Assembly: GCA_949317995.1 (NCBI GenBank)
Contig: OX439049.1
Span: 14,322,395-14,386,394, forward strand
From: Acholoe squamosa
Taxonomy: Eukaryota; Annelida; Polychaeta; Phyllodocida; Polynoidae
Length of the DNA: 64,000 nucleotides
Direction of reading: 5' to 3'
This document shows positions 7,221-49,836 of this stretch, one piece after another. Under the pieces are notes generated by a model. The model did no database searches and was not told the origin of the DNA. It saw nothing but the letters and a program-made list of their open reading frames with translations. Numbering within the stretch: position 1 is the first letter of the stretch; each line of letters opens with the position of its first letter. The position numbers were made by a program, and so were the translations under genes.

Positions 7221-7707
7221 TATTTACTACCGACTGTCCTTACCAGAGATTTGCTACCAGGCTGTCCTTATCAGAGGTTTGCTACCAGACTGTTCTTACC
7301 AGAAGTTTGCTACCAGGCTGTCCTTACCAAAGATTTACTACCAGGCTGTCCTTACCAGAGATTTGCTACCAGGCTGTCCTTACCAGAGATTTGCTACCAG
7401 ACTGTCCTTACCAGAAGTTTGCTACCAGGCTGTCCTTACCAGAGATTTGCTACCAGACTGTTCTTACCAGAAGTTTGCTACCAGGCTGTCCTTACCAAAG
7501 ATTTACTACCAGGCTGTCCTTACCAGAAGTTTGCTACCAGGCTGTCCTTACCAGAAGTTTGCTACCAGACTGTTCTCACCAGAAGTTTGCTACCAGGCTG
7601 TCCTTACCAAAGATTTACTACCAGGCTGTCCTTACCAGAAGTTTGCTACCAGACTGTCCTTACCAGAAGTTTGCTACCAGGCTGTCCTTACCAGAGTTTT
7701 ACTACCA
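7221..7707. repeat. 28-bp tandem array
   Basis: About 17 units of the type 'gctgtccttaccagaa' + 'gtttgctaccag'. The period of 28 is not a multiple of three, so the array is open in all three forward frames and gives overlapping 190-250-codon frames with a 28-residue periodicity. These are artefacts, not proteins. Degenerate relatives lie just upstream (from about 7166). Confidence 0.9.
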
Positions 7708-9995: not shown

Positions 9996-11290
9996 AATCA
10001 TCAGTCTGACGTCACGTCAGAGACAGTAATGTGAGGTATGACGTCACGCCACAAATCAGTGACCATCAAAACCCAAGGTAGTGTAGTGTATGACCAAATC
10101 CTACCATCAAAAACACGGTAACATTTGATGGGAATTATATCACATCGCAACCAGTGTCCACACTGCCAGAGGCCATCAGAAACAAGGTACATCTGGGTAT
10201 GACCACACTGCCAGTGGCCATTAGAAACAAGGTTTTGATGGGTATGACATCACATCACAGTGACCACACTGCCAGTGGCCATCGGAAACAAGGTTTTGAT
10301 GGGTATGACATCACATCACAGTGACCACACTGCCAGTGGCCATCAGAAACAAGGTTTTGATGGGTATGACATCACATCACAGTGACCACACTGCCAGTGG
10401 CCATCAGAAACAGGGTTTTGATGGGTATGACATCACATCACAGTGACCACACTGCCAGTGGCCATCGGAAACAGGGTTTTGATGGGTATGACATCACATC
10501 ACAGTGACCACACTGCCAGAGGCCATCGGAAACAGGGTATTGATGGGTACGACATCACATCACAGTGACCACACTGCCAGTGGCCATCGGAAACAGGGTA
10601 TTGATGGGTACGACATCACATCACAGTGACCACACTGCCAGTGGCCATCGGAAACAGGGTATTGATGGGTACGACATCACATCACAGTGACCACACTGCC
10701 AGTGGCCATCGGAAACAGGGTATTGATGGGTACGACATCACATCACAGTGACCACACTGCCAGTGGCCATCGGAAACAGGGTATTGATGGGTACGACATC
10801 ACATCACAGTGACCACACTGCCAGTGGCCATCGGAAACAGGGTATTGATGGGTACGACATCACATCACAGTGACCACACTGCCAGTGGCCATCGGAAACA
10901 GGGTATTGATGGGTATAACATCACATCACAGTGACCACACTGCCAGTGGCCATCGGAAACAAGGTTTTGATGGGTATGACATCACATCACAGTGACCACA
11001 CTGCCAGTGGCCATCAGAAACAGGATATTGATGGGTATAACATCACATCACAGTGACCACACTGCCAGTGGCCATCTGAAACAAGGTTTTGATGGGTATG
11101 ACATCACATCACAGTGACCACTCTGCCAGTGGCCATCAGAAACAAGGTGAAATGTTGGGTATGACATCACATCGCAACTAGTGACATCACAATTAAAGAC
11201 CACCAAAAATGAGGTAATGTGGGGTGTGATGTCATATTTCGACCAGTGACCAACAGAAACAAGGTAGCCCTCGGTATGCATGTCAAAGCA
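9996..11290. repeat. 61-bp satellite array
   Basis: The regular core (about 10195-11150) repeats 'atcacatcacagtgaccaca', 'ctgccagtggccatc', 'ggaaacagggt' and 'attgatgggtacg' with period 61, about 16 units. Units in the middle (10530-10900) are nearly identical, while both flanks decay into degenerate units, as expected of unequal exchange. Each unit contains 'tgacatcacatcacagtgac', a palindromic-looking TGAC/GTCA cluster. The flanking degenerate units carry TGACGTCA-type CRE palindromes. Confidence 0.9.
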
Positions 11291-14935: not shown

Positions 14936-15640
14936 CAGCCCTGGCAAGCAGACTCACCAGGGCTACATTCATTTATGACATCTTCATAGGATTGATCCCT
15001 TCCCTGATGGTGGCAAGCAGACTCACCAGGGCTACATTCATTTATGACATCTTCATAGGATTGATCCCTTCCCTGACGGTGGCAAGCAGACTCACCAGGG
15101 CTACATTCATTTATGACATCTTCATAGGATTGATCCCTTCCCTGACGGTGGCAAGCAGACTCACCAGGGCTACATTCATTTATGACATCTTCATAGGATT
15201 GATCCCTTCCCTGATGGTGGCAAGCAGACTCACCAGGGCTACATTCATTTATGACATCTTCATAGGATTGATCCCTTCCCTGATGGTGGCAAGCAGACTC
15301 ACCAGGGCTACATTCATTTATGACATCTTCATAGGATTGATCCCTTCCCTGACGGTGGCAAGCAGACTCACCAGGGCTATATTCTTTTATGACATCTTCA
15401 TAGGATTGATCCCTTCCCTGACGGTGGCAAGCAGACTCACCAGGGCTACATTCATTTATGACATCTTTATAGGATTGATCCCTTCCCTGATGGTGGCAAG
15501 CAGACTCACCAGGGCTACATTCATTTATGACATCTTTATAGGATTGATCCCTTCCCTGATGGTGGCAAGCAGACTCACCAGGGCTATATTCATTTATGAC
15601 ATCTTTATAGGATTGATCCCTTCCCTGACGGTGGGAATGA
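14936..15640. repeat. 69-bp satellite array
   Basis: About ten units of 69 bp with few differences. 69 is a multiple of three, so long frames exist on both strands: a 242-codon minus frame of 23-residue repeats (GRDQSYEDVINECSPGESAC) and a 234-codon plus frame. Neither is supported as a gene. Unit parts 'gcaagcagactcaccagg' + 'gctacattcat' are the hairpin arm of the dispersed double-hairpin family. The array runs on at 15641 into 'cagtgctggcaagcag' ... 'catcatgacaac', again that family. Confidence 0.9.
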
Positions 15641-20994: not shown

Positions 20995-22165
20995 AGAGCT
21001 GCTCTGCCTGACTATTCCCTTTATGCTAGATACACACATGTAACTAAGTCAGAGCTGCTCCTTTATTTTACTTCATACACATATATGATACCTAGAGCTG
21101 CTCCTTTACCTTACTTCATACACATACCCAACGTAGAGCTGCTCCTTTACCTTACTTCATATACATACCCAACCAAGAGCTGCTCCTTTACCTTACTCCA
21201 TACACATACCCAACCAACAGCTGCTCCTTTACCTTACTTCATACACATACCCAACCAAGAGCTGCTCCTTTACCTTATTTCATACACATACCCAACCAAG
21301 AGCTGCTCCTTTACCTTACTTCATACACATACCCAACCAAGAGCTGCTCCTTTACCTTACTTCATACACATACCCAACCAAGAGCTGCTCCTTTACCTTA
21401 CTTCATACACATGCCCTACTTAGAGCTGCTCCTTTACCTTACTTCATACACATACCCAACCAAGAGCTGCTCCTTTACCTTACTTCATACACATACCCAA
21501 CCTAGAGCTGCTCCTTTACCTTACTTCATACACATACCCAACCAAGAGCTGCTCCTTTACCTTACTTCATACACATGCCCTACTTAGAGCTGCTCCTTTA
21601 CCTTACTTCATACACATACCCAACCAAGAGCTGCTCCTTTACCTTACTTCATACACATGCCCAACCTAGAGCTGCTCCTTTACCTTACTTCATATACATA
21701 CCCAACCAAGAGCTGCTCCTTTACCTTACTTCATACACATGCCCTACTTAGAGCTGCTCCTTTACCTTACTTCATACACATACCCAACCTAGAGCTGCTC
21801 CTTTACCTTACTCCATACACATACCCAACCAAGAGCTGCTCCTTTACCTTACTTCATACACATACCCAACCTAGAGCTGCTCCTTTACCTTACTTCATAC
21901 ACATGCCCAACCAAGAGCTGCTCCTTTACCTTACTTCATACACATATATGATACCTAGAGCTGCTCCTTTACCTTACTTCATACACATACCCAACCTAGA
22001 GCTGCTCCTTTACCTTACTTCATACACATGCCTAACCTAGAGCTGCTCCTTTACCTTACTTCATATACATACCCAACCTAGAGCTGCTCCTTTACCTTAC
22101 TCCATACACATACCCAACCAAGAGCTGCTCCTTTACCTTACTTTATACACATGCCCTACCTAGCT
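20995..22165. repeat. 42-bp satellite array
   Basis: About 28 units built from 'agagctgctcctttacctta' + 'cttcatacacatacccaac'. 42 is a multiple of three, so forward frames of 237 and 127 codons run through the units (14-residue repeat with LLLYLTSYTYPT). The variants 'atgccctactt' and 'atatatgataccta' recur at intervals, hinting at a higher-order arrangement. This is not a gene. Confidence 0.9.
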
Positions 22166-24453: not shown

Positions 24454-25397
24454 TGGCAACCGTTGCCATCATGTTTGAAAACCATGTTGCTATCTTTAAA
24501 GGTTTAAACTCCACTTAACTTTCTGAAACTCACTCAAGACTCTCCCTCCTTTCCCAGACACCACCCACCCACCCTCTACACCCCAATGTTATCATATGCT
24601 ATAATGTATCTATATTTGGTTAAGGTGCTGGAGGAATGGTGGGAGTGGGGCCCTGCTAACTTGTTTAATACCACCTTGAGGGATCACCAAATGGGCACTG
24701 GCCATGCACTGCTCAGTCTCCATTCAGGAAGCCATGCCAGGACAGACCTACCAGCAGCAGCCCCCTTGCAGTGTTGTTGCTCACATCTTCACCTCTTACT
24801 GCCTCACCCCAGCTCCTTACACTGCGTCACGTGTAGGCTGCCTGGTGCCTCCCCACTAAGTGGGAGTATAAACATACCTTGCTAACCATTTAAGGATATT
24901 GTAGGGCTTAATAATGCACTATGCCTTTTGGTCGTCACTATACATGGATGCAGCCACGATGAGTGTCTTACCAATGCTGCATTAATGCATCATTCCAAAA
25001 GGTTACTGTATATACCAGGGATGTAAGTCAGACAGAGAGAAAAATCAGGAAGTCAGATTTTGTTAACTTAACAGTTTAATAAGGTAAATTAAACACTATA
25101 GAAACTCATACAGGCATTAACATTCTGAATGCAAGTCTCCTGGTTGACCTATTGTTGAGATTTCTTTTTTCTTTTTGTGAGACTCCATCTGTTTTCCTTA
25201 ATGCCATGCCCTCCCTCCTTCTCTTTCTAGACTCCTCTTGCTGTGCCCTCTTTCTCCTTTTCTTGTAGCAAAGTTCTAGTTCTCTAAACTGCCACTTGGG
25301 CAGCACTAGGGGCAGCACAAAGCATTCCCCCCTAGTGTCTTAAAACGAAACTAGTTGTTTTTCAGCCAATCAGAGACCAGGGAATATTCAGCCCTTA
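24454..25397. other. gene-free stretch flanking the DIRS-like element
   Basis: A hairpin-family copy lies at about 24890-25010 ('gtgtcttaccaatgctgc', 'attaatgcatcat'). 25290-25385 resembles 53865-53980 ('gcagcacaa.gcat', 'cagccaatcag'). Confidence 0.45.
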
Positions 25398-25528
25398 TTT
25401 TGGAATTTTGGGAAACTTACCGTAGGGTACCGGAGGGAAGTTGAAGTAAAACTTCTTATTTTACCGAGGGAATACGGGGTATTGGAGGAACAGATGAGAT
25501 ACGACCGAAGCCGGTCACGTGACGACAG
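25398..25528 (-). repeat. 3' inverted terminal repeat of the DIRS-like element
   Basis: The outer 99 bases (25398-25496) are complementary to the ICR (25655-25753). The inner 36 bases (25493-25528, containing GCCGGTCACGTGACGAC) are the exact inverse of 31271-31306 in the 5' ITR. The outer part is longer than, and only partly similar to, the 5' ITR, so the two ends are unequal, as in DIRS-1. Confidence 0.9.
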
Positions 25529-25654
25529 ACTTGAAAACCTAAAATCTATGAGTAGAAAAACACACACAATTTTCTGGAAACAACCAGATTAGACATTTCA
25601 ATTTTTTCATATAATAATAATGACCTCGAAAGAATACGGGTAGGGTGGGAAGGG
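25529..25654. other. spacer between ICR and 3' ITR
   Basis: AT-rich 126 bases of element sequence with no coding capacity. It would form the loop of a hairpin between the ICR and the 3' ITR. Confidence 0.6.
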
Positions 25655-25797
25655 CATCTGTTCCTCCAATACCCCGTATTCCCTCGGTAAAATAAGAAGT
25701 TTTACTTCAACTTCCCTCCGGTACCCTACGGTAAGTTTCCCAAAATTCCAAAATTTTACCTCGGGAATACCTCGGGTATTTCCGTAACCGATGAGAT
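25655..25797 (-). repeat. internal complementary region (ICR)
   Basis: Two abutting parts: 25655-25753 is the complement of the 3' end (25398-25496), and 25754-25797 is the complement of the 5' end (31299-31342). The join sits between 25753 and 25754 (CCAAAA/TTTTACC). It therefore predicts the exact junction of a circular DNA intermediate and fixes both element ends. Confidence 0.92.
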
Positions 25798-26033
25798 GTT
25801 GAAAGCGAATGTGTTTTTCTAGTCATAAAGATTTTTGGCTATTATCAATAATTCTCAATTATTATCAATTTAATAATTGACCAAGACCAATACAGAATCA
25901 ATTCAACACCTTTAATTTTCTGACCTTTACCAACTTGGTTAAAGCACAGTACACTAGTTATCTGGAGTAGTCAAATAACCAACCAAAGCAATTAATACAC
26001 CAGACAACCCATACATTTGAACGTTCAACAAAT

Positions 26034-27281
26034 CTAATCTGCTAGTCTCAGCAAGTTAGTAGCTACATGCTCTGTATCAACCTCGATGGGCTTGTTGTAG
26101 AATTTCCGATATGAGTCAGCTGACTTCCACCCTGCCAGGCGCATTACGGCATTCAAGCAGGATCCTACCTTGGTGGAAGCTGAAGCTGAAGCCCCACGAG
26201 TAGAGTGGGCCTTCCAACGTGAAGTGTCAATCTCAGCCATGTCTAGAGTGGCAATGGTCCACCTGGCCAGGGTATCCCTACTGATTCCGTCATGAGGCGA
26301 AATGTAACTCATAAGGAGCTGTAGTGAATTTTCAAGAGGTGGGAGGTTCAGCTTCCTCCTAAGTCGTTCAGACTTTTCACGGACCTTTTGCCTCCTAGTG
26401 AGATATGCTTTGAGGGTGCTGACCACACAGAGTTTTTCATTCAGGATGTAGGGTCGCAAGACCACAGTGTTTAAAGGGTCACCGACTCTGTTAGACTTTA
26501 ACAGAGTACTGAGTCTGAAGACAGCATTTCTGTCTTCCCAAGACAGTTCATCTGTCCTTAACGCTAAGATTGTCTGCCCTCTTTGAGATGTGACAAGCAA
26601 AATTAAGACCGCTAGTTTCAACGATAACTTCTTAAGTGACAAAGAACTGTTATCCCCCCAACTTTTGAACAACTTGAATACCTTTGTAACGTCCCAAAAC
26701 GTGTCATACCTTGGTCCACTAGGTCTATCTTCGTATGTACCCTTTACCATATGGCAAATGTTTGGATGTTGCCCAATAGGCACCCCATCTACCTGTGGTA
26801 ACAGGGTTCCCAAAGCACACCGTGCCACATTCATAACTCCATGACCTACTCCCGAGTCATACAAAGTTCTCATAAATTTACACACTTGTGGCATAGTGCC
26901 CTTCATCCAGTTATAACCCCGTTCAACACAGAAAACTATCCATTTGTTTATGTAAGTCGTATAAAGTTTCCTTGTAGATGGTCTCCAAGCTTTTATCATA
27001 AGGTCAATGGAAGCCTTGTCATACCCTTCCTTTTGGAGGCGTCGCCTCAGAAAAGGAAAGCTATAATTGGTAGACTTCCTATGAACTGTAGGCTTGTAGG
27101 GGCCCCATGAGGTAGTAGGTTGTTCTTTCTCTTGCGGAACCGTACGTAGTCCACCGCATACTTGTGGGCTTTTGCCTTCCAGGGTTGACTCTCCCAATCC
27201 GGCATCACGAGGATTGCCCTTGCTCCTGCCCTCAATATGCGTTGAAGCACCCGGCCTGCAATGCTGAACGGAGGAAAACAA
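26034..27281 (-). CDS. tyrosine recombinase (integrase) of DIRS-like element
   Basis: The 415-residue frame is closed by a stop just before AT-rich non-coding sequence and the ICR. An N-terminal SAM-like DNA-binding region (about residues 85-200, with RPSTRKLYTTYINKW) precedes the catalytic domain. Candidate catalytic residues are Arg234 (SQRGQTIL), His359 and Arg362 (AHSTRGAS), Trp385 (AGWKSADSY, replacing the second His as in many DIRS recombinases) and nucleophile Tyr395 (YRKFYNKP). It would cut and rejoin the circular cDNA into the genome in place of a DDE integrase. The frame overlaps the end of the RT ORF by 235 bases in another phase, so the first 60-80 residues may not be translated as shown. 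The ATG at 27281 is only the most upstream one in frame. No internal stops or frameshifts. Confidence 0.92.
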   Translation of the reverse strand: MFSSVQHCRPGASTHIEGRSKGNPRDAGLGESTLEGKSPQVCGGLRTVPQEKEQPTTSWGPYKPTVHRKSTNYSFPFLRRRLQKEGYDKASIDLMIKAWRPSTRKLYTTYINKWIVFCVERGYNWMKGTMPQVCKFMRTLYDSGVGHGVMNVARCALGTLLPQVDGVPIGQHPNICHMVKGTYEDRPSGPRYDTFWDVTKVFKLFKSWGDNSSLSLKKLSLKLAVLILLVTSQRGQTILALRTDELSWEDRNAVFRLSTLLKSNRVGDPLNTVVLRPYILNEKLCVVSTLKAYLTRRQKVREKSERLRRKLNLPPLENSLQLLMSYISPHDGISRDTLARWTIATLDMAEIDTSRWKAHSTRGASASASTKVGSCLNAVMRLAGWKSADSYRKFYNKPIEVDTEHVATNLLRLAD

Positions 27282-28936
27282 TATAAGAGCTTATTAGGCC
27301 ATGTGAATGAGAAAGAGTCAACTTTCCATGCTTCTGGTTCTGGCCTACGTGACACAAAACATTGAACTTTACAATTTGTTCTAGAAGCGAACATGTCCAC
27401 CTGAGGCCTCCCAAACCTTTCACAAATGATTTCAAAAATTGAGTCATTTATCTCCCACTCAGTCTCATCTTGGAAATGGCGTGACTCATGATCAGCGATG
27501 ACATTATCCACTCCCGGCACATGAGCCGCTGTCAACCAGATCCCTCTAGACTCACACCAGTTCCAGATGTTTCTTGATACCAGATTACACATTGGAGACT
27601 GCAGCCCTCCCATATGTCTCACATATGCAAGTGCCGTGGTATTATCTGTCATGACCCTAATATGAGCCCCTCTCACTTTACACAATGATTTTAGCCCATA
27701 TTCTATTGCCATGGTCTCGTGGATGTTGGTGTGGAAGTCCACCTCAGGAGGAAGCCATCTGCCATTAGTTCTGACATTCCCCCTGTGTGCACCCCAGCCG
27801 TCATCCGATGCATCCGTATACAATTCAAACTCTGGTGGACCTACATCCAGTGCCTTCTTAGCAGTTGGTATGCTGGCTTGCCACCATAGTATGTCCTGTA
27901 TAGCATCCTTGGAAAGTACCATTTTTGCATCAAAATTCCCTTTTCGGTAGGCTAACCATTCATTCTTGCATTTCTCAAGTCCTTTAATATGTGCAGGCCC
28001 ATATTGAACTCCTGCCGAGTAAGCTACCATAAGACCTATGAGAGATGCAACCTCCCTGATTTTTGGCTTGACTTTCCCCAGCAGCAAGTAGGAATCTGAC
28101 ATGAATTTGTCTACCTTCTCCTGAGTTGGATATATAGACATATCCACAGAGTCAATCCAAAAACCCAAGAAAATCACCTTTTGCGAGGCTACAAAGGCTG
28201 ACTTATTTGGGTGAATTACAAAACCTAACCCATCCAGGGTTTCACACACTCTTCTGATAGATTGCTCACAACCTTCTTTTGACTCATGCATAATAAAAGA
28301 ATCGTCAATGTAGGGGAAACAGATGTGTCCCTCCTCCCTTAGCTTTGCGAAGGGGGGAGTGAGCAACTTAGTGAATACTCTTGGTGCACATGAAAGACCG
28401 TTTGGCATCCCTACAAACTGGTAGAGGACCCCATTCCACCTGAACTTCAGAAATTTACGATAATCTTCTCGTACAGGAATAGAGTAATAGGCATCCTTTA
28501 AATCTACACTCCCCATAAAACAATTAGGGGTGACAAGGTCCACAGCAGTTTGTAGGGAGGCCATCTTAAAATGCTCATACATGACCTGCTTGTTCATATC
28601 TGTCAAATCCAATATAAGCCTGTAATCCCCATTGGGCTTGGGACGCAGGAAAACATTGGAGATGAATTCGCCCTGTTCATGTACTGTAAACTCAATAATA
28701 CCCCTAGCTACCATTTTATCTACTTCCTTATCCATAAAGGCCACCTCTACCGGATCAAGTTTATATGGAGGAGGCACCCAGTCCTGGGATGGTAAGGCAT
28801 TAAAGTCAATGGTGACACCCTGAGACATGGCTAAGATCCAAGGGTCCTTGGTGAGTTTAAACCAAGCATCAGCACACTTCAGAATGTTTCCCCCTTGAAA
28901 GGATTGGACAGTGTTATGTAGTGGGAAGGGACTCAC
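27047..28936 (-). CDS. reverse transcriptase / RNase H polyprotein of DIRS-like element
   Basis: 629 residues. The reverse transcriptase (about residues 60-270) shows LRPKPNGDYRLILDLTDMN (97-115), catalytic Asp145 in SVDLKDAYYSIP, VGMPNGLSCAPRVF, and YIDD at 209-212 with catalytic Asp211/Asp212. RNase H (about 370-490) has Asp375 (YTDASDDGWGA), Glu407 (IHETMAIEYGL), Asp431 (VMTDNTTAL) and Asp482 (VIADHESR). The C-terminal 130 residues contain VDMFASR and a CFPPFS ... ILVMPDWESQPW block, which I associate with the region after RNase H in DIRS elements. The role is copying the element RNA to cDNA in a cytoplasmic particle and degrading the template. The ATG lies 5 bases after the gag stop, in another frame. 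All catalytic residues are present. Confidence 0.93.
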   Translation of the reverse strand: MSPFPLHNTVQSFQGGNILKCADAWFKLTKDPWILAMSQGVTIDFNALPSQDWVPPPYKLDPVEVAFMDKEVDKMVARGIIEFTVHEQGEFISNVFLRPKPNGDYRLILDLTDMNKQVMYEHFKMASLQTAVDLVTPNCFMGSVDLKDAYYSIPVREDYRKFLKFRWNGVLYQFVGMPNGLSCAPRVFTKLLTPPFAKLREEGHICFPYIDDSFIMHESKEGCEQSIRRVCETLDGLGFVIHPNKSAFVASQKVIFLGFWIDSVDMSIYPTQEKVDKFMSDSYLLLGKVKPKIREVASLIGLMVAYSAGVQYGPAHIKGLEKCKNEWLAYRKGNFDAKMVLSKDAIQDILWWQASIPTAKKALDVGPPEFELYTDASDDGWGAHRGNVRTNGRWLPPEVDFHTNIHETMAIEYGLKSLCKVRGAHIRVMTDNTTALAYVRHMGGLQSPMCNLVSRNIWNWCESRGIWLTAAHVPGVDNVIADHESRHFQDETEWEINDSIFEIICERFGRPQVDMFASRTNCKVQCFVSRRPEPEAWKVDSFSFTWPNKLLYCFPPFSIAGRVLQRILRAGARAILVMPDWESQPWKAKAHKYAVDYVRFRKRKNNLLPHGAPTSLQFIGSLPIIAFLF

Positions 28937-28941
28937 CTGCC

Positions 28942-30357
28942 CTACTTGGGCCCCTTCTTGGAAAAACCCTGTTGGGCTTGCTGCTGCTGACCTTGGCCCT
29001 GCGGACGAGGTGCTTTGAAGCGGTAACCCTGGCCTTGTGTCTGGTAATTCTGAGAGTAAGTCTGCCTGTAGCCATGAGCCACTTGAAATCTCGGCTGAGC
29101 GTACTGATGGCGCGGAGCAGGGTAGCGGCCCCTAGGGCCCTGGACATAGTAGTGGTTCTGTCCATAAGGGTGTCTAGGCCCCCAGGCTTGAGCAGGTGCT
29201 GTGCCCATGACCTTCTGCCTCTTAGACTGGGAATGAGAGTCCTGCGGCCCCGGGCGTTTGGACGCTAGAACCTTGTCTGAGATCTTCTTGTCCTCCTCAG
29301 CTTGTTTAATACGAGCCTCCAGGTTGCCCCCAAAAAGCCATTGTGGGTCCCCATCAATGTTGGTCTTAGTGAGCGCCTTAGCATAGGGCTTAGCAAGGAA
29401 AGGTTTTAGCAAGTCCCTCCTCTTCACCGATAGCCCATTGCATACATTGACCAGTAGTCTGGTTGCCTTATTAAAATCCCTTCCAAAGGCATCCAGTTGT
29501 TGGTCCTCGGGCCCTTTCTCCAACATCATCGAGCCTAACGGTGCCATAGCTGCAATGGCCGAGACCACCCCTTTCTGCAGGGTCTGAAGAGATACATCCA
29601 GCATACGCACTGCCGCATTCTTGGAAAGTGCCTCAGAGTTGAAAATTGCTTCCTCTAACTTAGGTGCTACCAGTCTCTGCACATTTGAAGGCCTAGGAAA
29701 TTCTTTAGCCGCTTTCTCCAAGTCCTGGGCAATATAAGTCTCTTCAAAATAGGAATTGATGGCATCGGAGAGGGCTTCATGTACAGTGGGGCCTTCCTTG
29801 GTTAGTTCAGCTTTTTCCCGTCTGTAGGACTGGATACTCTCAGCTAGGCTTCCTGTTAGCCCCTTGAGATGGTCTATTGGAGGTGGCTTAGCCTTTGACG
29901 ACTGTGCCTCAAAATCACCTTGCACAGAAGCCACTTCCTCCTCATCATCCACTACTGACATAGCATGTGCCTGTCCATGTGGGCCTAGTACCACATAACC
30001 CTGACCTTCCTCCTCTACTGGTTCACACTGGTAGGCCATGTGATCCATACCATAGGCATAATCCATCGGTTGATAAGGGTCCTGATAGTAATCATAACCC
30101 TGCTGGTAGTAGGGCATAGGAGGAGCCCATCTTTGAGGTGGCTGCTGGACCAACAGCACAGGAGCACTGGGAGTCTCAGTAGTTTGAACCTCAGGCTCCT
30201 TCTCAGAGTTTACTGAACTCACAGTGTCCTTCTCAGCACCCTTATCCTTAGAATGCCTAGATGAAGATCTAGCAGAGCTGGAACTTGAACTAGAGTTCTT
30301 ATGTGATTTCTTCCCCTTCTCCACAGCAGTGGGACTGGACTGAGATGTACTTGCCAT
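28942..30357 (-). CDS. gag-like ORF1 of DIRS-like element
   Basis: 471 residues, first ORF of the element, beginning at an ATG preceded by a purine-rich leader. Residues 1-45 are a Ser/Lys-rich low-complexity tail (SSSSSSSARSSSRHSKDKG). 85-130 are Tyr/Gln/Pro-rich. About 160-360 form a helical, charge-mixed region, the likely assembly core. The C-terminus (about 385-471) is basic and Arg/Gln/Tyr/Gly-rich (PRPQGQGQQQQAQQGFSKK) and probably binds nucleic acid. There is no CCHC knuckle, unlike the second YR element at 48 kb. By position it should be the particle-forming protein. Fast-evolving gag proteins carry few diagnostic motifs, so the family call rests mainly on synteny with the RT and recombinase. 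Confidence 0.8.
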   Translation of the reverse strand: MASTSQSSPTAVEKGKKSHKNSSSSSSSARSSSRHSKDKGAEKDTVSSVNSEKEPEVQTTETPSAPVLLVQQPPQRWAPPMPYYQQGYDYYQDPYQPMDYAYGMDHMAYQCEPVEEEGQGYVVLGPHGQAHAMSVVDDEEEVASVQGDFEAQSSKAKPPPIDHLKGLTGSLAESIQSYRREKAELTKEGPTVHEALSDAINSYFEETYIAQDLEKAAKEFPRPSNVQRLVAPKLEEAIFNSEALSKNAAVRMLDVSLQTLQKGVVSAIAAMAPLGSMMLEKGPEDQQLDAFGRDFNKATRLLVNVCNGLSVKRRDLLKPFLAKPYAKALTKTNIDGDPQWLFGGNLEARIKQAEEDKKISDKVLASKRPGPQDSHSQSKRQKVMGTAPAQAWGPRHPYGQNHYYVQGPRGRYPAPRHQYAQPRFQVAHGYRQTYSQNYQTQGQGYRFKAPRPQGQGQQQQAQQGFSKKGPK

Positions 30358-30406
30358 CCTGGAAAAAGACCAGAAATAAAAGGATTATAGCCTAGCTGCT
30401 GATCGA

Positions 30407-30792
30407 TATGTACTTAGAGCAGGACTAGAAAACATGTACCTGGAGTAGACCCGCTTAGCGGCAACGGCGAAACTCGCCGAGCGCTATGTACTTAGAGCAG
30501 GACAATAACGTGTACCTGGAGCAGACCCGCTTAGCGGTAACGGCGAAACTCGCCGAGCGCTATGTATTTAGAGCAGGACTAGAAAACATGTACCTGGAGC
30601 AGACCCGCTTAGCGGCAACGGCGAAACTCGCCGAGCGGTATGTACTTAGAGCAGGACAATAACGTGTACCTGGAGCAGACCCGCTTAGCGGTAACGGCGA
30701 AACTCGCCGAGCGCTATGTATTTAGAGCAGGACTAGAAAACATGTACCTGGAGCAGACCCGCTTAGCGGCAACGGCGAAACTCGCCGAGCGG
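30407..30792 (-). repeat. alternating 78/76-bp leader repeats of the DIRS-like element
   Basis: Units start at 30407, 30485, 30561, 30639, 30715 and 30793, so spacings alternate 78, 76, 78, 76, 78: a 154-bp higher-order unit of two variants ('gactagaaaacatgtacc' and 'gacaataacgtgtacc'). Every unit holds two adjacent small hairpins, CCGCTTAGCGG and CGGCGAAACTCGCCG. They lie upstream of ORF1 in the 5' leader, so they may hold the promoter, act in the RNA leader (packaging, translation), or bind element proteins. Which of these is unknown. Confidence 0.85.
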
Positions 30793-31270
30793 TATGCACT
30801 TAGAGGTATACTTTAGGTAGCTCTCGCATTGTCCTACTCTAAGTACGCAGGTACAACCGCGCTGGTGCTCGGCGAGCCCCAACGAAGAATTTTTCGATCG
30901 CTATCGACCAAAACTGCCCGAAAAACGGGCAAACTGAGGGCAAAATGGGTGCCAAACATCAGGGAATGCTCAAAAAACCCTGTTAGATCCCTGTAACGAG
31001 AGAATTCCAGCGGAATTCCTCCAGGAATTTGTAAAAATGTAAAATCTCTCTACGGCCTGCCGACACGACAACCGTCTTTGAGAGAAAACTTTATTTTCTA
31101 GCACTAAAAGGGTACCCCAACGGCGTAACCCTGGCTAGAAGCAAACGAGAACAAAAACCCTTAAAATAGGGCAAAAACTGCCCAGAAAAGGGCAGTAAAA
31201 TGGGTAAAACCGATCAAATACTCACCTGGAAATTTGAAACCGTCTGCCAAACACGGACGCTCGATCCAAA
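30793..31270 (-). other. 5' leader of the DIRS-like element
   Basis: Non-coding element sequence between the 5' ITR and the sub-repeats. It contains repeated 'aaaactgccc' / 'gggcaaaa' blocks. No TATA box stands out. Confidence 0.5.
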
Positions 31271-31342
31271 CTGTCGTCACGTGACCGGCTTCGGTCGTAT
31301 CTCATCGGTTACGGAAATACCCGAGGTATTCCCGAGGTAAAA
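31271..31342 (-). repeat. 5' inverted terminal repeat of the DIRS-like element
   Basis: 31271-31306 is the exact inverse of 25493-25528, and 31299-31342 is the exact inverse of the ICR half 25754-25797. It ends in GAGGTAAAA at 31342, followed by host sequence. Confidence 0.9.
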
Positions 31343-31655
31343 CTCGGTAAATAGATCTGGAAGATGTTTGGAACATGTTAGGAGCAATGTAGGGAGGTCG
31401 GGGAGGGTCTTAGGGATGGGAGGAGCCCGTCCTGGTTGCATCTATTGGCCGGCAGCAGTGCAGGGAGGTCGGGAGGAGTCTTAGGGTCCTGGCTGCATCT
31501 ACTGTATTCTACTGGCCGACAGCAGTGTACAGTTGGGCTAAGATCAAACAAAAAGTGACCTTCTCATGATTTTGTTAGTCTGTAATAATAACAGTTTTTC
31601 ATTTTCTAGAAAATAGGAATTCCTTATAAAACTTGAAGACCTGATTTTATACACT
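31343..31655. other. gene-free flank with short duplication
   Basis: A local imperfect duplication ('agggaggtcggg' ... 'gtcttaggg' ... 'tggttgcatcta' ... 'ggccggcagcagtg') occurs at about 31388-31460 and 31460-31525. Confidence 0.5.
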
Positions 31656-31659
31656 CCAC

Positions 31660-31790
31660 ATGGGTGGGCATCGGATTGGCATCATGCTCCAATGCAATGC
31701 TGATGAGTAGACTTGCCAGGCCTGCATTGGTGCATCAATGGTGACCATAGGACATGAACCTGGAGGCATCATCCAGCCCTTAAAGGTATA
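31660..31790. repeat. double-hairpin family, partial copy
   Basis: 'atcatgctccaatgcaatgc' ... 'gccaggcctgcattggtgca' forms one hairpin of the family, with 'gaacctggaggcatcat' following as in other copies. Confidence 0.65.
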
Positions 31791-34700
31791 AACATGGCTT
31801 AATAGCTGGAGGCGGCGCCTGGGGCGCTGCTGACCACACTGTAAAGGTCTATTAATATTAGGGTGATGGGGGGCTGTGGGGAGAGTCAACACCTACATGT
31901 ATGCACCCACACCAGCCAATTATACCTCCACCAGGTCAGAATCAATATCACCTACAAGCCAAACCCACACCTTCATGCAGTCTATGGGCATGGGAGGGTG
32001 GGAGGGTGTGGGCAGAGGGTGAGGCAGGGAGGGATGATGGTGAGAGAGGTATGCGCAGAATTGTGCATGGAAGTGACTGATACTCAAAAAAGGACTTGAA
32101 CACAACTTTGAAGTAAATAGGAAAATGTTGAAGGAAACTGATGCCTGAATGGGATAAAGAAGGTGAGGCACAAGAATACCAGCCTTATTGACCTTACTGC
32201 GAGAAGCTCACAAATGAGAAGCTTTGAGGCACAGGAGTCCAGGAGATAAGCTAAGGGATAGGGCACTTGGAGGAGAGGAGATAAGTAAAGTGAAGGATAC
32301 TTAGGACCAGTGCAGTTGAAGGGAAATTTGTGTCCCTTTAAGGGGGCCTAATACCTAGCACAAAAACCATTAAGGTGCTCAAATAGGACCCCCTGAATAT
32401 AGGTTTTATATAGCAGTGCATAGTTCTTTGGAACTTGAAATTCGCTGTCAGGGAAAAGACCCAGACGGCTGCCATCGCTGTTTACAGTGCCGGCAGGTGG
32501 ATTATATAGCCCTGCAACAGTGCATTATGATGACAAAGATACATGACCTTTGAGGCACCATGTACCCCTTAAGGGGTTAAGAGTATCCCTCAAAGGCTTA
32601 AGGGAAAGGGTGAGCAGGTACTGAGGGTGGTGTATATGGACAGGCTGCTGATGGAGCAAGACTTTGGGGAGTGAAATTCACTGCACGACTGCGTAAACAG
32701 ACCCAGATGTTTGACCAGGGACAACTTTTATGAAGTTGTTTCTCAACTGCTCTAGACCTGCTGTAGACGTTCAGCGAGCTGCTCCCAAATTCTCATAACT
32801 GCGGGTAATGGAGTCTGGAATTGCAGCTCAAGCTGATACTAAATGTACAGAGGGGGATTGCTTCCATGTGCCGAGGTGGCTGTGAAAAGGGGAAAGTACA
32901 AGAGATGTAGATTATATGGCAAGAGGAGTACATGTGGTCCAAAAAATGGAATTGTAAGAGAAAGAGGAATCGATGAGTAACAGAGGTGAGGGTAAGGAGA
33001 TGGAAAATAGGAAAATACAAGACAACAGAGAGGGATGGAAATGGGAGCTCGAAAGGGAACCGATATGACTATAGAAGAGAGGAGGGGAGTGGAAATAAGG
33101 GTTAGAGAAGCAAAAGAGGATAAAAAGACACAAGACCAGAGGAGAGAGAAAGGGGGACTAGACTAACGGAGTTGAGGGGAAGGGCCTCAAAAAGGGCAGG
33201 TTGGAAGAACAGAGAAGTAGTGTGGTGTATTTTCTTGTACCCCCATCGGTGTAGGAAAATGAGAGGGGAATATATGGAAAATGCAGCGCTGGAGAAGCTT
33301 AAGGGGGAGAAGGGAGACTGGGTAGGTGCTGTATAAACCTACTAATGAATGCCCATTTTAATCTAGATTTAATTAAGAAAGGCCTGCCAGGGTCCTAATA
33401 GGATCCAATATACTCCTCAGGAAGATATATGCAGTATTGATCCAATTTTCAGGAGTAGGTCGCAGCCAGGGTTTCTAAGCCTGATACCTCAGGTTCCACT
33501 TGATTAGATTACTATTGCCATAGCATACCAATATCACGATATAGATGGTGACCAACTGTGAACAGTTTTCTCCTTCAATCTGAATATATAGGAAACTGCC
33601 TGTGGAATTCCAATAGGCCTCACTACTTGTGTAGCCAAGAGGGTCTAGGAAGCAAATCTTCATTTTTTGGGGTGGGAGGGACTGGGGGTGTTTGGCCCCA
33701 TACCCAATTTCCAGTAATCATCAACATAGTCAGCCCATGCTTACCTGTCTTGTATTACTTTATTGGGCAGGCAAAATTGAGAAGAGACAGATCAAGATAT
33801 CCCAGGCAATGCCTTGAGCTTTGCCATCCCAAAAGGGCACCCAGTCTGCATTCTGAGAAAAGATTGCATGGTTCAAATGGTACATATTGTCATACATGGG
33901 TAATAACCTATGAAATTGTAAGATGAGAGAGGAGGGGAAGGGGGGGGGGCAATTTTGTTTGTGAACTTGTGGTTTCAGGCTCTTTATTTGGACATGTTTC
34001 TTCCAACTCCTGCGGTCACTCCTTATAAAACACACATTGAACTATATTTTATATTGGTGTGCAGGTTGTGGTGTCAGGGCTGTAGGAAGGTGGGTAGGAA
34101 TACTGCTGACTGCCAGCTGCTGGGGGTAGGGGTGGAACTGTGCATGGGAAGGTGTGTGTGAAGGCTAGGGTCCCATGTGGCAGCCAGACCTCCTGACATA
34201 TTGAAACTTGGGATACATGTATATATGCGCATTGCTTTCTATCTAAGCCATGCAGACGGCTGTAACTGGGCTAATGCCCCTCATGTACATAAACAGATAT
34301 GTCTATGGGGCACTTCCAGGTCATTATATGTTGACAGACATCTTGCTACCCATCATGGATTAATTCAATCAGCTAGCAGTGAAAATAGACCTACTCCTCA
34401 CTTTATTTCTTATTATTATCCTTGTTTTGTCGATCTATGATTACTATGGAAACTGACAGTGTTGCAAATGACAGTTCATAGAGGATGTGCCTTTTTCATC
34501 TGAATCTGACACAGCTAGGTCTTATTTCACTACTGTATACATACCAGTCCGCTCAGCCTCCACTGGTGCCATTTTCCCTTTCTCTGCCTACTGTTACATA
34601 AATCATAGTTTTCCACTTCAAATATATCCTTAATTTTCACAAACATGACAGAAATGTAGTGTTATCGTTGAATTTATGAGGTCTTAAAATGGGCGGAGTT

Positions 34701-41568: not shown

Positions 41569-42660
41569 AATCTGTCAATGACCAATTCATGCATCATGAC
41601 AACCCTATGGGACTGATGCACACTCAAAGCAATGACATGATGCACTGTTCACTATCAGAGGTGTCAGTTGGGTGTTGGTCCAATCCCTGGGCCCAATCTC
41701 TGAAAAGTTTAGAGCCCTAGAACAATTCACAGATCGAAATATTTCTCAACATAGGAAGCTGCACTTAGGGTCTAATTCAGAGCCTCTCAACCTCTGGAAC
41801 TCTATGATCCTCTAAATGTCTGACATCCTTGGGTCATGACCCTGGAGGCATCATGCGGCCTTTAAATGACTATAGTGTTCTCCAGTATCAGTGGCAGTAG
41901 TGGACAGTTTATCTGTGCTGTGCCAAGGTGACAAGGGCAATGTGTGGTGGGTGGGGGAAACATCCGGACTAATGTCATAAATATCTACACTACTGAATAG
42001 GATAAACGTGCATGGACAATTATTATCAAGGATTGGTCGTGACAACAATTCACTCATGCCCCACTGTAATATCTCTCATTGTGTTAACTTATACAGCACT
42101 GATACCTAATCTATTCTGAATTGTTATCTCCTTTTATCCAGTGGACCTAGCAATAGGTTTTCTATATATAATTTCTCATGTGGGAATACATAAGTGGTTT
42201 AAAGTTTCATTTCCCTTTTGCTTTAATAGGATGATGCCCTTTTGCATCGGTCCAATGCCATCAAATTGCTTTTCCACCGTTTTACTACACTCCTTGTTTC
42301 TTTACACAACCTTTAAATCTAAAATCTATTTTCATTTTTAAAGGGAGGCACCTTTGAACAAGGATAAACCAAGAACCAAGGGTCATACTTTTTACCAGCT
42401 ACAAGTGAGAAGCTATACCATAGCCGGTGTAAATCTTTGCTTTAGTAACCACACTAGCGGTAGTTTAAATACATACTTCTGTCATTGTAATTAAATACAC
42501 ACTGCAGGCTGTGTTGGAGTGCCCATGTCCCTAATGTTTACAGTTATAGTATAGACCTGACCTCTCAGGTCCCAAGTGCACAAAGGGTGGGTTTTATTTT
42601 TATTTCACCCTTTTTCTGTTTCCTCCCTGTTCTGTTGTTGATTCTGACAATATATACCTT
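41569..42660. other. gene-free stretch with hairpin-family pieces
   Basis: Family pieces lie at about 41569-41660 and 41820-41870 ('gaccctggaggcatcatgcg'). No gene is supported. Confidence 0.45.
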
Positions 42661-42662
42661 AG

Positions 42663-45235
42663 CCCTTTAGGGTTAGGACAGTGCGACACTTACCAATGCT
42701 GCAGTACATTAGCACTTTAGGGTTAGGACAGTGCGACACTTACCAATGCTGCAGTACATTAGCCCTTTATAGGGTTAGGACAGTGCGCCACTTACCAATG
42801 CTACAGTACATTAGCCCTTTATAGGGTTAGGACAGTGCGCCACTTACCGATGCTGCAATACCTTAGCCCTTTAGGGTTAGGACAGTGTGACACTTACCAA
42901 TGCTGCAGTACATTAGCCCTTTATAGGGTTAGGACAGTGTGACACTTACCAATGCTGCAGTACATTAGCACTTTAGGGTTAGGACAGTGCGACACTTACC
43001 AATGCTGCAGTACATTAGCCCTTTATAGGGTTAGGACAGTGCGCCACTTACCAATGCTACAGTACATTAGCCCTTTATAGGGTTAGGACAGTGCGCCACT
43101 TACCGATGCTGCAATACCTTAGCCCTTTAGGGTTAGGACAGTGTGACACTTACCAATGCTGCAGTACATTAGCACTTTAGGGTTAGGACAGTGCGACACT
43201 TACCAATGCTACAGTACATTAGCCCTTTATAGGGTTAGGACAGTGTGACACTTACCAATGCTGCAGTACATTAGCCCTTTATAGGGTTAGGACAGTGCGC
43301 CACTTACCGATGCTGCAATACCTTAGCCCTTTAGGGTTAGGACAGTGCGACACTTACCAATGCTGCAGTACATTAGCCCTTTAGGGTTAGGACAGTGCGA
43401 CACTTACCAATGCTGCAGTACATTAGCACTTTAGGGTTAGGACAGTGCGACACTTACCAATGCTACAGTACATTAGCCCTTTAGGGTTAGGACAGTGTGA
43501 CACTTACCAATGCTGCAGTACATTAGCACTTTAGGGTTAGGACAGTGCGACACTTACCAATGCTACAGTACATTAGCCCTTTATAGGGTTAGGACAGTGT
43601 GACACTTACCAATGCTGCAGTACATTAGCCCTTTATAGGGTTAGGACAGTGCGCCACTTACCGATGCTGCAATACCTTAGCCCTTTAGGGTTAGGACAGT
43701 GCGACACTTACCAATGCTGCAGTACATTAGCCCTTTAGGGTTAGGACAGTGCGACACTTACCAATGCTGCAGTACATTAGCACTTTAGGGTTAGGACAGT
43801 GCGACACTTACCAATGCTGCAGTACATTAGCACTTTAGGGTTAGGACAGTGTGACACTTACCAATGCTGCAGTACATTAGCACTTTAGGGTTAGGACAGT
43901 GTGACACTTACCAATGCTGCGGTACATTAGCACTTTATAGGGTTAGGACAGTGTGACACTTACCAATGCTGCAGTACATTAGCACTTTAGGGTTAGGACA
44001 GTGTGACACTTACCAATGCTGCAGTACATTAGCCCTTTAGGGTTAGGACAGTGTGACACTTACCAATGCTGCAGTACATTAGCCCTTTATAGGGTTAGGA
44101 CAGTGCGCCACTTACCAATGCTACAGTACATTAGCCCTTTATAGGGTTAGGACAGTGTGACACTTACCAATGCTGCAGTACATTAGCACTTTAGGGTTAG
44201 GACAGTGCGACACTTACCAATGCTGCAGTACATTAGCCCTTTATAGGGTTAGGACAGTGCGCCACTTACCAATGCTACAGTACATTAGCCCTTTATAGGG
44301 TTAGGACAGTGCGCCACTTACCGATGCTGCAATACCTTAGCCCTTTAGGGTTAGGACAGTGTGACACTTACCAATGCTGCAGTACATTAGCACTTTAGGG
44401 TTAGGACAGTGCGACACTTACCAATGCTACAGTACATTAGCCCTTTATAGGGTTAGGACAGTGTGACACTTACCAATGCTGCAGTACATTAGCCCTTTAT
44501 AGGGTTAGGACAGTGCGCCACTTACCAATGCTACAGTACATTAGCCCTTTATAGGGTTAGGACAGTGCGCCACTTACCAATGCTGCAGTACATTAGCCCT
44601 TTAGGGTTAGGACAGTGCGCCACTTACCGATGCTGCAATACCTTAGCCCTTTAGGGTTAGGACAGTGCGACACTTACCAATGCTGCAGTACATTAGCCCT
44701 TTAGGGTTAGGACAGTGCGACACTTACCAATGCTGCAGTACATTAGCACTTTAGGGTTAGGACAGTGCGACACTTACCAATGCTGCAGTACATTAGCACT
44801 TTAGGGTTAGGACAGTGTGACACTTACCAATGCTGCGGTACATTAGCACTTTATAGGGTTAGGACAATGTGACACTTACCAATGCTGCAGTACATTAGCA
44901 CTTTATAGGGTTAGGACAGTGTGACACTTACCAATGCTGCAGTACATTAGCACTTTAGGGTTAGGACAGTGTGACACTTACCACTGCTGCAGTACATTAG
45001 CACTTTAGGGTTAGGACAGTGTGACACTTACCAATGCTGCAGTACATTAGCACTTTAGGGTTAGGACAGTGTGACACTTACCAATGCTGCAGTACATTAG
45101 CACTTTAGGGTTAGGACAGTGCGCCACTTACCAATGCTACAGTACCTTAGCCCTTTAGGGTTAGGACAGTGCGACACTTACCAATGCTGCAGTACATTAG
45201 CACTTTAGGGTTAGGACAGTGCGACAATTACCAAT
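42663..45235. repeat. 50/52-bp satellite with telomere-like motif
   Basis: About 51 units of the form 'ccctttagggttaggacagt' + 'gcgacacttaccaatgctgc' + 'agtacattag'. Two length classes differ by the AT in 'ctttatagggttag' (52 versus 50 bp). Each unit contains TTAGGGTTAGG. Variant units (gcgcc, cgatgctgcaatacc, tgctacag) recur in a fixed order, for example at 42765-42865, 43015-43120 and 44235-44335, showing higher-order repeats. The last unit passes without a break into hairpin-family sequence ('accaatgctgcattcatgca'). Confidence 0.93.
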
Positions 45236-45787
45236 GCTGCATTCATGCATTGTTCTGGTCCTACTGCAAAGATGCACCCCCAAAAGATCTGCATGATGCA
45301 TTATTGCAGTGCTGATGAGTAGACTTAAATAGTTAAAGGTGCGTCTACTGGGGACATGTGACTGTGACGTCACAAGGCGCACACATGTAGCCTGGGAGGT
45401 GGGATCTAGTACTTCCGGTCAGATTGTACCACGATCAGGGTTGTGAAGAAAGACTTATCCTTTGACTTTGTTGTTGTTGTTGTCCTGACTTTCAACAAAA
45501 GCTCAAGGGCGAACAAAAACAATGACTAACAAGTACATGTGATAAGAGCTGAGGGGAGACTTCCAAGTATCCCTGTATTATGTCTAGGTCTTTAGCAGGT
45601 TAGAATCACAACGTCTGCCCATCTACATTTATACATTTGGTGAATCCTGGCTTTAAAACATGTGGAATCACACGTGTGACTGCTGGTAGTTGTTTGGGAG
45701 AATGTTGTTCATCCTGTTGTATTGTGTCTGGGACAGTTCACCGTGTCTGCTGGTTCTTATTAACTAAAGTGCCATAAGCTTATAGTC
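45236..45787. other. gene-free stretch after the satellite
   Basis: A hairpin-family copy continues to about 45335 ('gcatgatgcattattgcagt'). Then comes unique-looking sequence with a short GTT run near 45468. Confidence 0.45.
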
Positions 45788-47793: not shown

Positions 47794-48022
47794 ATATGGA
47801 ACTATATACACTCGTGTATATTTATATAATTAGCCGCGGACGGTTAGGGACTACTTGCAGCTCGTAAGGATACCAATGATGTCATAGTATGACGTCACAG
47901 TCAACATCCCATTGGTATATAAGGGGTGGTTTCAAAGTAACCGTCAATTGGCTCGATTCACCTGGACAGGTAACACCACGCTGGGTGTTCCCTGGAAATT
48001 TTAAAGATTTCTTGGTTATAAT
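47794..48022 (+). promoter_or_regulatory. promoter and leader of the Ngaro-like element
   Basis: A CRE palindrome TGACGTCA (47890-47897), an inverted CCAAT-like CCCATTGG (47908-47915), a TATA box TATATAAGG (47916-47924) and a shared GTCAATTGGCT 27 bases downstream (47943-47953), where an initiator is expected. Spacing equals that of copy 1 within one base, although the surrounding sequence has diverged, which argues the motifs are under constraint. The gag ATG lies about 90 bases after the presumed start. Confidence 0.6.
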
Positions 48023-49075
48023 TTGATTTTTCGAATCAAAATGGGGAGGAAATCTACTAGAGGTGCCAAAGCGGCTACTACTTCTAAAAAATCAGCCAAA
48101 TCGGCTAAGAAGGTAGTAGAATCGGCCAATTTGGGATTTGCGAGTGACTTGGATTCGTCTTGTGTGGATCAGAGGTCTGCATCGCCCAACCATGCTAACG
48201 GGTTAGAAGACGACCAATTCATTGACCAGACGGATAGGATGGACCTATTGGAAGGCGAGTTGTGCACCATCAAGAATCTACTGCAGGATTTGGTTGCTGG
48301 AAAGGACAAGAGAGACGAGACGAAATCAGCCGAGAGGGCGTGGCAGCATGCACGTGCGAATGTTTGTCAAAGACCGGTGACGTCACACCTCCAAGGGCGC
48401 AGCCGCGTATCTAGGCAGTGGTCCCCGAGCGTCCTTAGCAACGGATCGAGGCAGGACGAGGGCGCACACCGTGGTCGTCGCCGGAGATCGAAATCTTCTT
48501 TTTCCGCTTGTCACAGACCTCGGTCGTCGTCAAGAGGGTCGTCAGTTGATTCATCTACATCCAGGGTTCACTCCAATACCAAATGTGGTGAGTTTGACCA
48601 TGAAATATATGTAAAAAAAACGGAAAAGATCGACACCGTTGAGAAATTGATGCTAGTCAACTTGAATTTTGTCTTGGATTATTACAGAGATAACAGTGAT
48701 GTAGAAGGCATGTTAAAACATCTCCAAGTTCTGGTTGAAAAGGCTGGGACGAGAATGTATACAGTAGCAGCCCTATTGGCTTACGATAAATCGGTTAGGA
48801 CCAGGGTAAATAAGGATGGGGTAGAAGCTTTTGGGGTTATAGACAACTCTGACATTCTTAGATACCTATCCTATGATGGTACCGTTCAGGCACAGAAGGC
48901 ATACGCCACCAAGACTAGGAATGGTACCAAACAAAAAATCTTAAATAACTCTTGCTATGCTTTTAATAGAGCAGAAGGTTGTGTAAGGGACCCCTGCAAG
49001 TATAAGCATGTTTGTAGTGTATGCAGTTCCTCAGGACATGGCAAGACTGAATGCCAAAGGTCCAAAAATGAATAG
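48023..49075 (+). CDS. gag-like ORF of Ngaro-like retroelement
   Basis: 350 residues. The first reasonable start is codon 1 (MIFRIKMGRKST; the second Met in a purine-rich context is the likelier start). Residues about 10-40 are Lys/Ala/Ser-rich, 70-95 acidic and possibly coiled, 110-185 Arg/Ser-rich, 195-300 a helical core. The C-terminus carries a CCCH finger (CYAFNRAEGCVRDPCKYKH, C-x8-C-x4-C-x3-H) immediately followed by a CCHC knuckle (CSVCSSSGHGKTEC, C-x2-C-x4-H-x4-C). This tandem CCCH-CCHC end is, from memory, typical of ORF1 in YR retroelements such as Ngaro. It ends at TAG (49073-49075), but the same frame stays open downstream into the RT. Confidence 0.8.
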   Translation: MIFRIKMGRKSTRGAKAATTSKKSAKSAKKVVESANLGFASDLDSSCVDQRSASPNHANGLEDDQFIDQTDRMDLLEGELCTIKNLLQDLVAGKDKRDETKSAERAWQHARANVCQRPVTSHLQGRSRVSRQWSPSVLSNGSRQDEGAHRGRRRRSKSSFSACHRPRSSSRGSSVDSSTSRVHSNTKCGEFDHEIYVKKTEKIDTVEKLMLVNLNFVLDYYRDNSDVEGMLKHLQVLVEKAGTRMYTVAALLAYDKSVRTRVNKDGVEAFGVIDNSDILRYLSYDGTVQAQKAYATKTRNGTKQKILNNSCYAFNRAEGCVRDPCKYKHVCSVCSSSGHGKTECQRSKNE

Positions 49076-49834
49076 GAAACTGCAGGTGGTCAATGTCCCA
49101 TAACTGGTAATGATTTTTGTTTGGTGCCTGACCAAGTTATGGTAGGTGTGGTAGATGTCGGCTTGCCTTCACAAACTCCAGTACAGGAGGTGAATGATGC
49201 GGAGAGGGTTAATGATTATATTCTTTCAACTGGGTCCGTGTCTGAACTAAATATTTTCCAGGAATTTAATTCTTTAGGAAACGATGTAAATATTACCTGT
49301 AATGGTCTAGTACAGGTGGAGGATGAACTCCTTTTTACTGTTAGTGTCGCAGATTTACCCAGCATCAGGGTATATGACAAGTGTATAGAGGGTGTATGTA
49401 CTTATGTTCATTACATTGGTGGGGAGAGAGCTCAAATTTTACCATGTAGGGTAGCTGCTTTCCTTCAACAAAACGGTCTTATTGATATTAGTGGCACAGA
49501 GGCTGATTTTCTATGGCATGGTATTGTTCAAGGGTTTAAAATTGTGGATCCGGACTGTCAAACTACGTATGATTGTAAAAATTATAAATCAATCCTGGAG
49601 GGGAGATTTTATAATGAATATTGTGGTATATTATTAGACGAGTTGGAAGCGGGTCTAGTCTCAAAGAGTGATAGTAAACCTCGTTGTATCCATGCTCTAG
49701 GTGGTGTAGAAAAATCAAATGGCAAGTTAAGACCCATAACTGACTGCAGTATGCCTGATAAAATATCTATTAACAATTTTATGGATACCACTAGCTCAAC
49801 TTTTTCTTATAATAATATTAGCACGGTATATATA

Positions 49835-49836
<2 letters not shown>
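49076..49836 (+). pseudogene. 5' part of pol (linker plus start of RT), truncated
   Basis: Open without a break in the gag frame from the base after the gag TAG; the first Met is at 49121 or later (49139). About 200 residues of linker precede the start of a reverse transcriptase (RCIHALGGVEKSNGKLRPITDCS, about 49681-49750; then SINNFM). The RPITDCS...SINNF signature matches the first RT blocks of Ngaro/DIRS-type elements as I recall them. The frame then enters a (GA)n tract at 49838 and becomes Arg-Glu repeats. The catalytic YxDD block, RNase H and recombinase are absent from what follows, so the element is 3'-truncated and cannot be autonomous. Confidence 0.75.

Follow-up and report, generated by a model that had tools for sequence, protein, structure and literature searches.

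DIRS1-like retrotransposons, such as DIRS-1 of Dictyostelium, XtDIRS2, XtDIRS3 and AcDIRS2, share a common architecture: three open reading frames (ORFs) that include a reverse transcriptase and a tyrosine recombinase, inverted terminal repeats (ITRs), an extension past one of these repeats, an internal complementary region (ICR) that spans the junction of the circularised element, and insertion without duplication of the target. In the published model, the RNA would lack parts of the element's ends, and the ICR would template these parts during reverse transcription. PMC3266345 holds that target trinucleotide and circle junction are identical, so that no duplication arises. PMC5633606 recounts a report of circular cDNA for Dictyostelium DIRS-1, and PMC5941688 describes DIRS integration as proposed, without experimental demonstration. 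An element of this kind lies in a stretch of 64,000 nucleotides from the polynoid annelid Acholoe squamosa (assembly GCA_949317995.1, contig OX439049.1, positions 14,322,395 to 14,386,394 of the forward strand), referred to below as the window. The insertions of its family have a fixed junction polarity, with the circle's trinucleotide at the coding 5′ junction and the target's own at the coding 3′ junction. This polarity is new here, and it contradicts both an identical target trinucleotide and an equal segregation of a heteroduplex core; no statement of it was found in the extracts of the cited DIRS literature, and a 2020 work on single-stranded DIRS cDNA may treat strand use.

The window element carries ITRs and an ICR complementary to both ends across the circle junction (Table 1). 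A first-pass annotation, made from the letters of the window alone, had described it as structurally complete, with an ICR of 143 bases that matches 99 bases of one end and 44 of the other without mismatch, fixes the ends to the base and predicts the circle junction AAAA/TTTT. This description is borne out: the ICR is the reverse complement of the two termini placed end to end at 143/143 positions, the inverted arms of 100 and 44 nt (both 100% identical) are far beyond chance, and the joined ends give AAAA|TTTT. The same ends are reached from the points where 23 copies cease to align and from the paralogous empty sites of other copies. The 23 copies were scored out of 594 candidates seen at first look in a search of the genome (1.48 Gb, 63 contigs) with the element's DNA, and all of them are full end to end, at 5849 to 5948 nt.

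Read in coding orientation, the flanks of these copies depart from background (p < 0.002): position −1 is A in 18 and G in five, and position +1 is T in 22 and C in one. Positions +2 and +3 are A or T in all 23, and positions −8 and −7 are A/T-rich with a weaker signal. A count of junctions, based on a search anchor that left the core free, covered 48 5′ stretches, of which 46 could be located (L066 and L084 have no edge and were omitted); here the −1 base is A in 37 and G in nine. Genome-wide, the base preceding the exact 5′ end, when not A, is G in 58 cases, T in one and C in none. At the other end of the element, AAA is present in 56 of 56 3′ junctions, and the trinucleotide that follows varies: TAT in 32, TTT in seven, TTA in six, TAA in four, TCT in two, and CTT, ATT, GTT, TCA and TTC in one each.

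The state of the target before insertion can be read from repeats in which a copy's site is empty. Four such sites, all for copies other than the window element, are clear, two of them in the window (Table 1), with further sites for L023 (G^TAT intact, in tandem units) and for L070/L079 (A^TAT intact, in neighbouring units); nothing is duplicated or lost in any of them, in keeping with the absence of a target-site duplication expected in the first-pass annotation. The empty site of L094/L031 agrees but has an indel nearby, that of L068/L077 is weak, with gaps near the junction, and matches for L007 and L021 were excluded because they correspond to the copy's own filled junction. The insertions are seamless and lie at R^TWW, where R is A or G, W is A or T and the caret marks the crossover.

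The polarity of the junctions is uniform. Every one of the 46 located coding 5′ junctions carries the circle's TTT. Both junctions were seen in 45 copies, and 41 of these are informative, their 3′ trinucleotide being other than TTT; all 41 have the circle's TTT at the 5′ junction and the target trinucleotide at the 3′ junction, an outcome with a chance of 4.6e-13 if both polarities were equally likely. Since TAT and TCT make up 34 of the 56 targets, an equal split predicts that about 30% of 5′ ends would carry T, non-T, T. The unchanged 5′ 31-mer has 441 exact matches in the genome, a mixture of ends and ICRs that corresponds to roughly 220 ends. Genome-wide, T, non-T, T followed by the exact element sequence has no match, in a search confined to this form of the reverse core and not taking in TAA or TTA. 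At the opposite junction, 170 3′ ends are followed by T and then non-T, one of them being the damaged ICR of copy L096.

The published model has a double-stranded circle recombine with a target that shares the same 3-bp core. A mismatch in the core would be expected to segregate in both directions, because a staggered exchange of two strands leaves a heteroduplex that replication should resolve either way, and this is not seen. The model is stated in PMC3266345, where 18 of the 28 elements of Table 3 have equal start and end trinucleotides, and the circular cDNA reported for Dictyostelium DIRS-1 (PMC5633606) is also in its favour. Against it, in the window family, TTT occurs in just seven of 56 targets, TAT or TTA stands in intact empty sites, the target trinucleotide lies at the 5′ junction in none of the 41 informative copies, and the T, non-T, T arrangement is missing genome-wide. 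For this family the identical-core model is already disfavoured and must be considered very improbable. The published table itself lists different start and end trinucleotides in 10 of the 28 elements, and identity of the trinucleotide is therefore not treated here as defining a DIRS1-like element. The first-pass annotation had not foreseen a target trinucleotide at variance with the circle, nor had it foreseen a fixed polarity.

Fixed junctions and seamless insertion would be accounted for equally well by a two-strand exchange on a double-stranded circle with an overlap of zero or one base, in which the crossover at R^T is sharp and no heteroduplex forms. Known tyrosine recombinases make staggered cuts of about 6-8 bp, and a core of some 3 bp is suggested by the T, W and W favoured at target positions +1 to +3; an exchange without such a core is unlikely. 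The joining of linear cDNA into host breaks, with no part for the recombinase, would also form no duplication, but the R^TWW motif, the exact ends at all located junctions and the seamless empty sites are unlike end-joining, and this explanation is barely credible.

The counts for the window family reject a two-strand reading with identical trinucleotides and point to the exchange of one strand. The preferred reading, with a probability of roughly 0.6, is that the recombinase joins the circle junction to a chromosomal R^TWW by one-strand exchange. As in the published model, the joined ends would form a circle with the junction AAAA^TTTT; the recombinase would then cut the element at A^T and the target at R^T, a single strand would be exchanged, and host replication would complete the insertion. 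One-strand exchange at A^T and R^T would always place the circle's TTT at the coding 5′ junction and leave the target trinucleotide at the 3′ junction. A single-stranded or nicked circle, with a fold at its inverted repeats, may serve as the substrate. As single-stranded DNA, the joined ends are predicted to form a long stem (relative to dinucleotide shuffles, z is −14.5 on one strand and −13.5 on the other), which stops within one base of the crossover and leaves the 61-nt extension as a loop. To our knowledge, one-strand exchange has been described solely in bacterial tyrosine recombinase systems.

A variant of the preferred reading, whose confidence overlaps with it, places the one-strand exchange on a double-stranded nicked circle instead of a folded single strand, as in the strand-biased circularizing integrative elements (SE) of bacteria. 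SE combine a one-sided placement of circle and target bases with a double-stranded nicked circle (PMC10214605), and nothing in the present data separates this route from the folded single strand. The variant is unlikely on balance. The cDNA intermediates of DIRS are reportedly linear and single-stranded, according to the title of a 2020 paper, a point against the variant.

Several points weigh against one-strand exchange on a folded substrate as a general account. The predicted stem at the joined ends follows from the inverted repeats alone. The sequence AAAATTTT is palindromic and reads the same on both strands, so the data are silent on which strand is exchanged. SE leave a like scar although their reported circle is double-stranded and nicked (PMC10214605), and the scar is thus no proof of a single-stranded substrate. 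The mechanism is inferred from the insertion scars of one family plus one published table. In that table, the 18 elements with equal trinucleotides are mute on polarity and fit the identical-target model equally well, and the existence of elements with both extensions means that a crossover at the border of stem and loop is not universal (PMC3266345). For DIRS families of Xenopus, TTT is reported at both ends (PMC9210276).

The 10 unequal elements of Table 3 in PMC3266345 nevertheless carry information of their own. On our reading of the table, seven of them have a right extension and a start that agrees with the circle junction; AmDIRS2, one of the seven, carries both extensions. AcasDIRS1, which has a left extension only, matches the circle junction at the end, and two elements with two-base junctions cannot be assigned. 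Read in this way, the table points to the same polarity. It is tentatively proposed that DIRS-type retrotransposons in general use for their integration an integron-like reaction that exchanges one strand of a circle folded at the ITRs and is resolved by host replication, a generalisation that is possible yet doubtful. If it is true, (i) the inverted repeats and the unpaired extension would form a recombination hairpin, (ii) the polarity of the scar would track the side of the extension across the DIRS elements of animals, fungi and amoebae, and (iii) one-strand exchange would offer a reason why DIRS elements have inverted and not direct repeats. About 280 near-identical copies and readable empty sites turn the question of DIRS integration into one of counting.

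The family of the window element is young and large, and the element itself is an intact DIRS1-like retrotransposon with recent activity. A 36-nt left-end pattern with up to three mismatches has 568 matches genome-wide (286 + 282) and none for the reversed control; an intact copy yields two matches, which gives the figure of about 280 copies. A search with the recombinase protein gave 2441 candidates; the 120 that were scored are all 99-100% identical and free of stops, so that no other DIRS1-like family appeared among these 120. The long piece of each of the 23 scored copies aligns with the window element at 99-100%, and copy L002 has no difference from it over 5464 nt, the tandem repeat being excluded. 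In 10 of the 23, a second piece that contains the tandem repeat (query 5079-5945) aligned separately at 89-97%; 10 of the 23 fall short of the window copy's length by 76-83 nt, and the alignment break lies in the tandem array. All three ORFs are open in 21 of the 23 (L019 has two stops in pol, L023 one in the recombinase). The first-pass annotation had proposed a genome search for near-identical copies and a recent insertion, and the abundance of close, open copies supports the latter. Its argument from the perfect ICR fares less well: the match itself stands, being perfect against the copy's own ends in 21 of the 23 copies and with one mismatch in the other two, but it is a weak clock because each round presumably rebuilds the ends from the ICR. 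The near-identical copies are a better sign of youth. Variation in the ICR-complementary termini of the 23 copies is confined to two sites at the coding 3′ end, each in one copy, and among 20 further left ends three copies depart from the window sequence, L034 and L039 at the end itself and L033 within the ICR; this is too little for covariation to support or refute templating by the ICR.

All three ORFs of the window element are open, and the catalytic residues named in the first-pass annotation are in place. In the reverse transcriptase/RNase H ORF, YIDD lies at residue 209, and the D-E-D-D motifs YTDAS, HETMA, TDNTTA and ADHES are present, with an RT_RNaseH score of 16.2 bits that stays under the cut-off of 24.8; a weak match to Dam near the C-terminus (18.6 bits) is likewise under its cut-off of 28.1. 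The recombinase retains R234, H359, R362 and Y395, and its Phage_integrase match (E 1.3e-4, 22.2 bits) is under the cut-off of 27.1.

Table 1. Features of the DIRS1-like element and of related sites, in positions of the window. pN/pS, ratio of non-synonymous to synonymous polymorphism, from the variants of 23 copies against the window copy; cut-off, Pfam score threshold.
Feature	Position	Strand	Remarks
DIRS1-like retrotransposon	25398..31342	-	5945 nt; ends defined by ICR; 23 full copies located end to end
Coding 5′ terminus, starts TTTT	31299..31342	-	44 nt complementary to ICR
ITR, coding 5′ end, 72 nt	31271..31342	-	base-pairs with the 3′ ITR in predicted folds
Tandem repeat upstream of gag, unit of ~78 bp, 5.2 units	30407..30805	-	repeat search
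gag-like ORF, 471 aa, named by position	28942..30357	-	no Pfam match at E 0.1; pN/pS 0.32
Reverse transcriptase/RNase H ORF (pol), overlaps recombinase ORF	27047..28936	-	RVT_1 75.6 bits (cut-off 29.6); motifs; pN/pS 0.34 (non-overlapping part)
Tyrosine recombinase ORF, taken from the first TTG of the frame, true start uncertain	26034..27281	-	Pfam Phage_integrase; R, H, R, Y residues; pN/pS 0.26 (non-overlapping part)
ICR, 143 nt, holds circle junction	25655..25797	-	143/143 positions equal to predicted circle junction
ITR, coding 3′ end, 70 nt	25459..25528	-	repeat search and copy comparison
Coding 3′ terminus, ends AAAA	25398..25496	-	99 nt complementary to ICR
61-nt extension past ITR (published term rE)	25398..25458	-	loop of predicted circle-junction hairpin
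Target-derived trinucleotide, coding 3′ junction, coding-strand TAA	25395..25397	-	interpreted from other copies' empty sites
Empty paralogous site (repeat) for copy L011	40884..41047	-	A^TAT intact; 91% over 164 nt
Empty paralogous site for copy L056/L045	34980..35076	+	A^TTA intact; 90% over 99 nt; further matches elsewhere

Some copies of the family have unusual arrangements. At L091 (G000:C3:63239150-63239900), a young copy lies exactly at the 5′ end of an older one (93% over 667 nt), head-to-tail, and the pair leaves a genomic AAAA|TTTT junction, the same as the circle junction; it is best read as an insertion into the older copy, and fits R^TTT as a valid target. At L088 (G000:C6:26747900-26748700), two recombinase frames lie 1.7 kb apart: one copy runs past the ICR and repeat to coding position 5858, followed by coding positions 4169-4400 of another copy. 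L098/L099 (G000:C3:17242872-17244628) is an internally deleted copy of 1.76 kb with its left end fused to the gag region. In L096 (G000:C2:92185080-92185650), the ICR is short of about 12 nt at the junction and both termini look undamaged, which would be expected if the loss followed insertion.

Other tyrosine recombinase elements are present in the genome. A Pfam integrase search gave 4426 candidates, of which 147 were scored and 17 of the 147 places fetched (L100-L116). These elements have direct repeats of roughly 200 bp after the recombinase; 14 of 15 3′ ends read TAACTTATA, which is missing from L110, and the sequence continues as (TA)n in 13 and partly so in L106. They look as if they target (TA)n microsatellites. 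With their direct repeats of about 200 bp and ends mostly in (TA)n, they were unusable as a test of how general the polarity is. Of 18 globin matches in the genome, two were compared with the PDB and gave weak hits, the best to neuroglobins at E about 1e-5, which would fit an invertebrate animal as host. Elsewhere in the window, tandem arrays lie at 42655-45241, 21051-22163, 10200-11173, 14942-15634 and 7223-7707, with units of about 50, 41, 61, 69 and 28 bp, respectively, and two adjoining open frames of 356 and 276 codons (48005-49906, plus strand) have no Pfam match at E 0.01.

The element is DIRS1-like by its repeats, its ORFs and the lack of a duplication, as set against the published descriptions of the named DIRS elements. 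XtDIRS2 is listed with start TTT, end TAT and junction AAA, the same as most copies here, and the longer half of the window element's ICR (99 nt) exceeds every one in the table except that of AmDIRS1 (110), the sum of 143 being within the range of the table (PMC3266345). The window family differs from the DIRS1-like elements named above in having a tandem repeat upstream of gag, and its polarity and R^TWW target have been measured over many copies. Ngaro/PAT-like elements likewise combine a reverse transcriptase with a tyrosine recombinase, but have split direct repeats in place of inverted repeats with an ICR; no split direct repeats were found in 24800-32000, where the repeat search reported as direct repeats only the tandem array and, beyond the element, a 33-nt pair. 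Integron cassettes are not known to pass through reverse transcription or to carry an ICR, integrons are bacterial, and the window element is not a member. The insertion of a cassette (attC x attI) works alike, in that one strand is exchanged, the single-stranded site is folded and the product is resolved by replication (PMC8946536). SE, which also rely on a tyrosine recombinase, leave the circle's spacer at one junction and the target's at the other; they are DNA elements of Gammaproteobacteria, with a 6-bp spacer, two recombinases and two further core genes, and the window element is not one of them (PMC10214605). The one-sided placement of circle and target bases, a trait of the integron and SE kind, is found in 41 of 41 informative copies of the window family.

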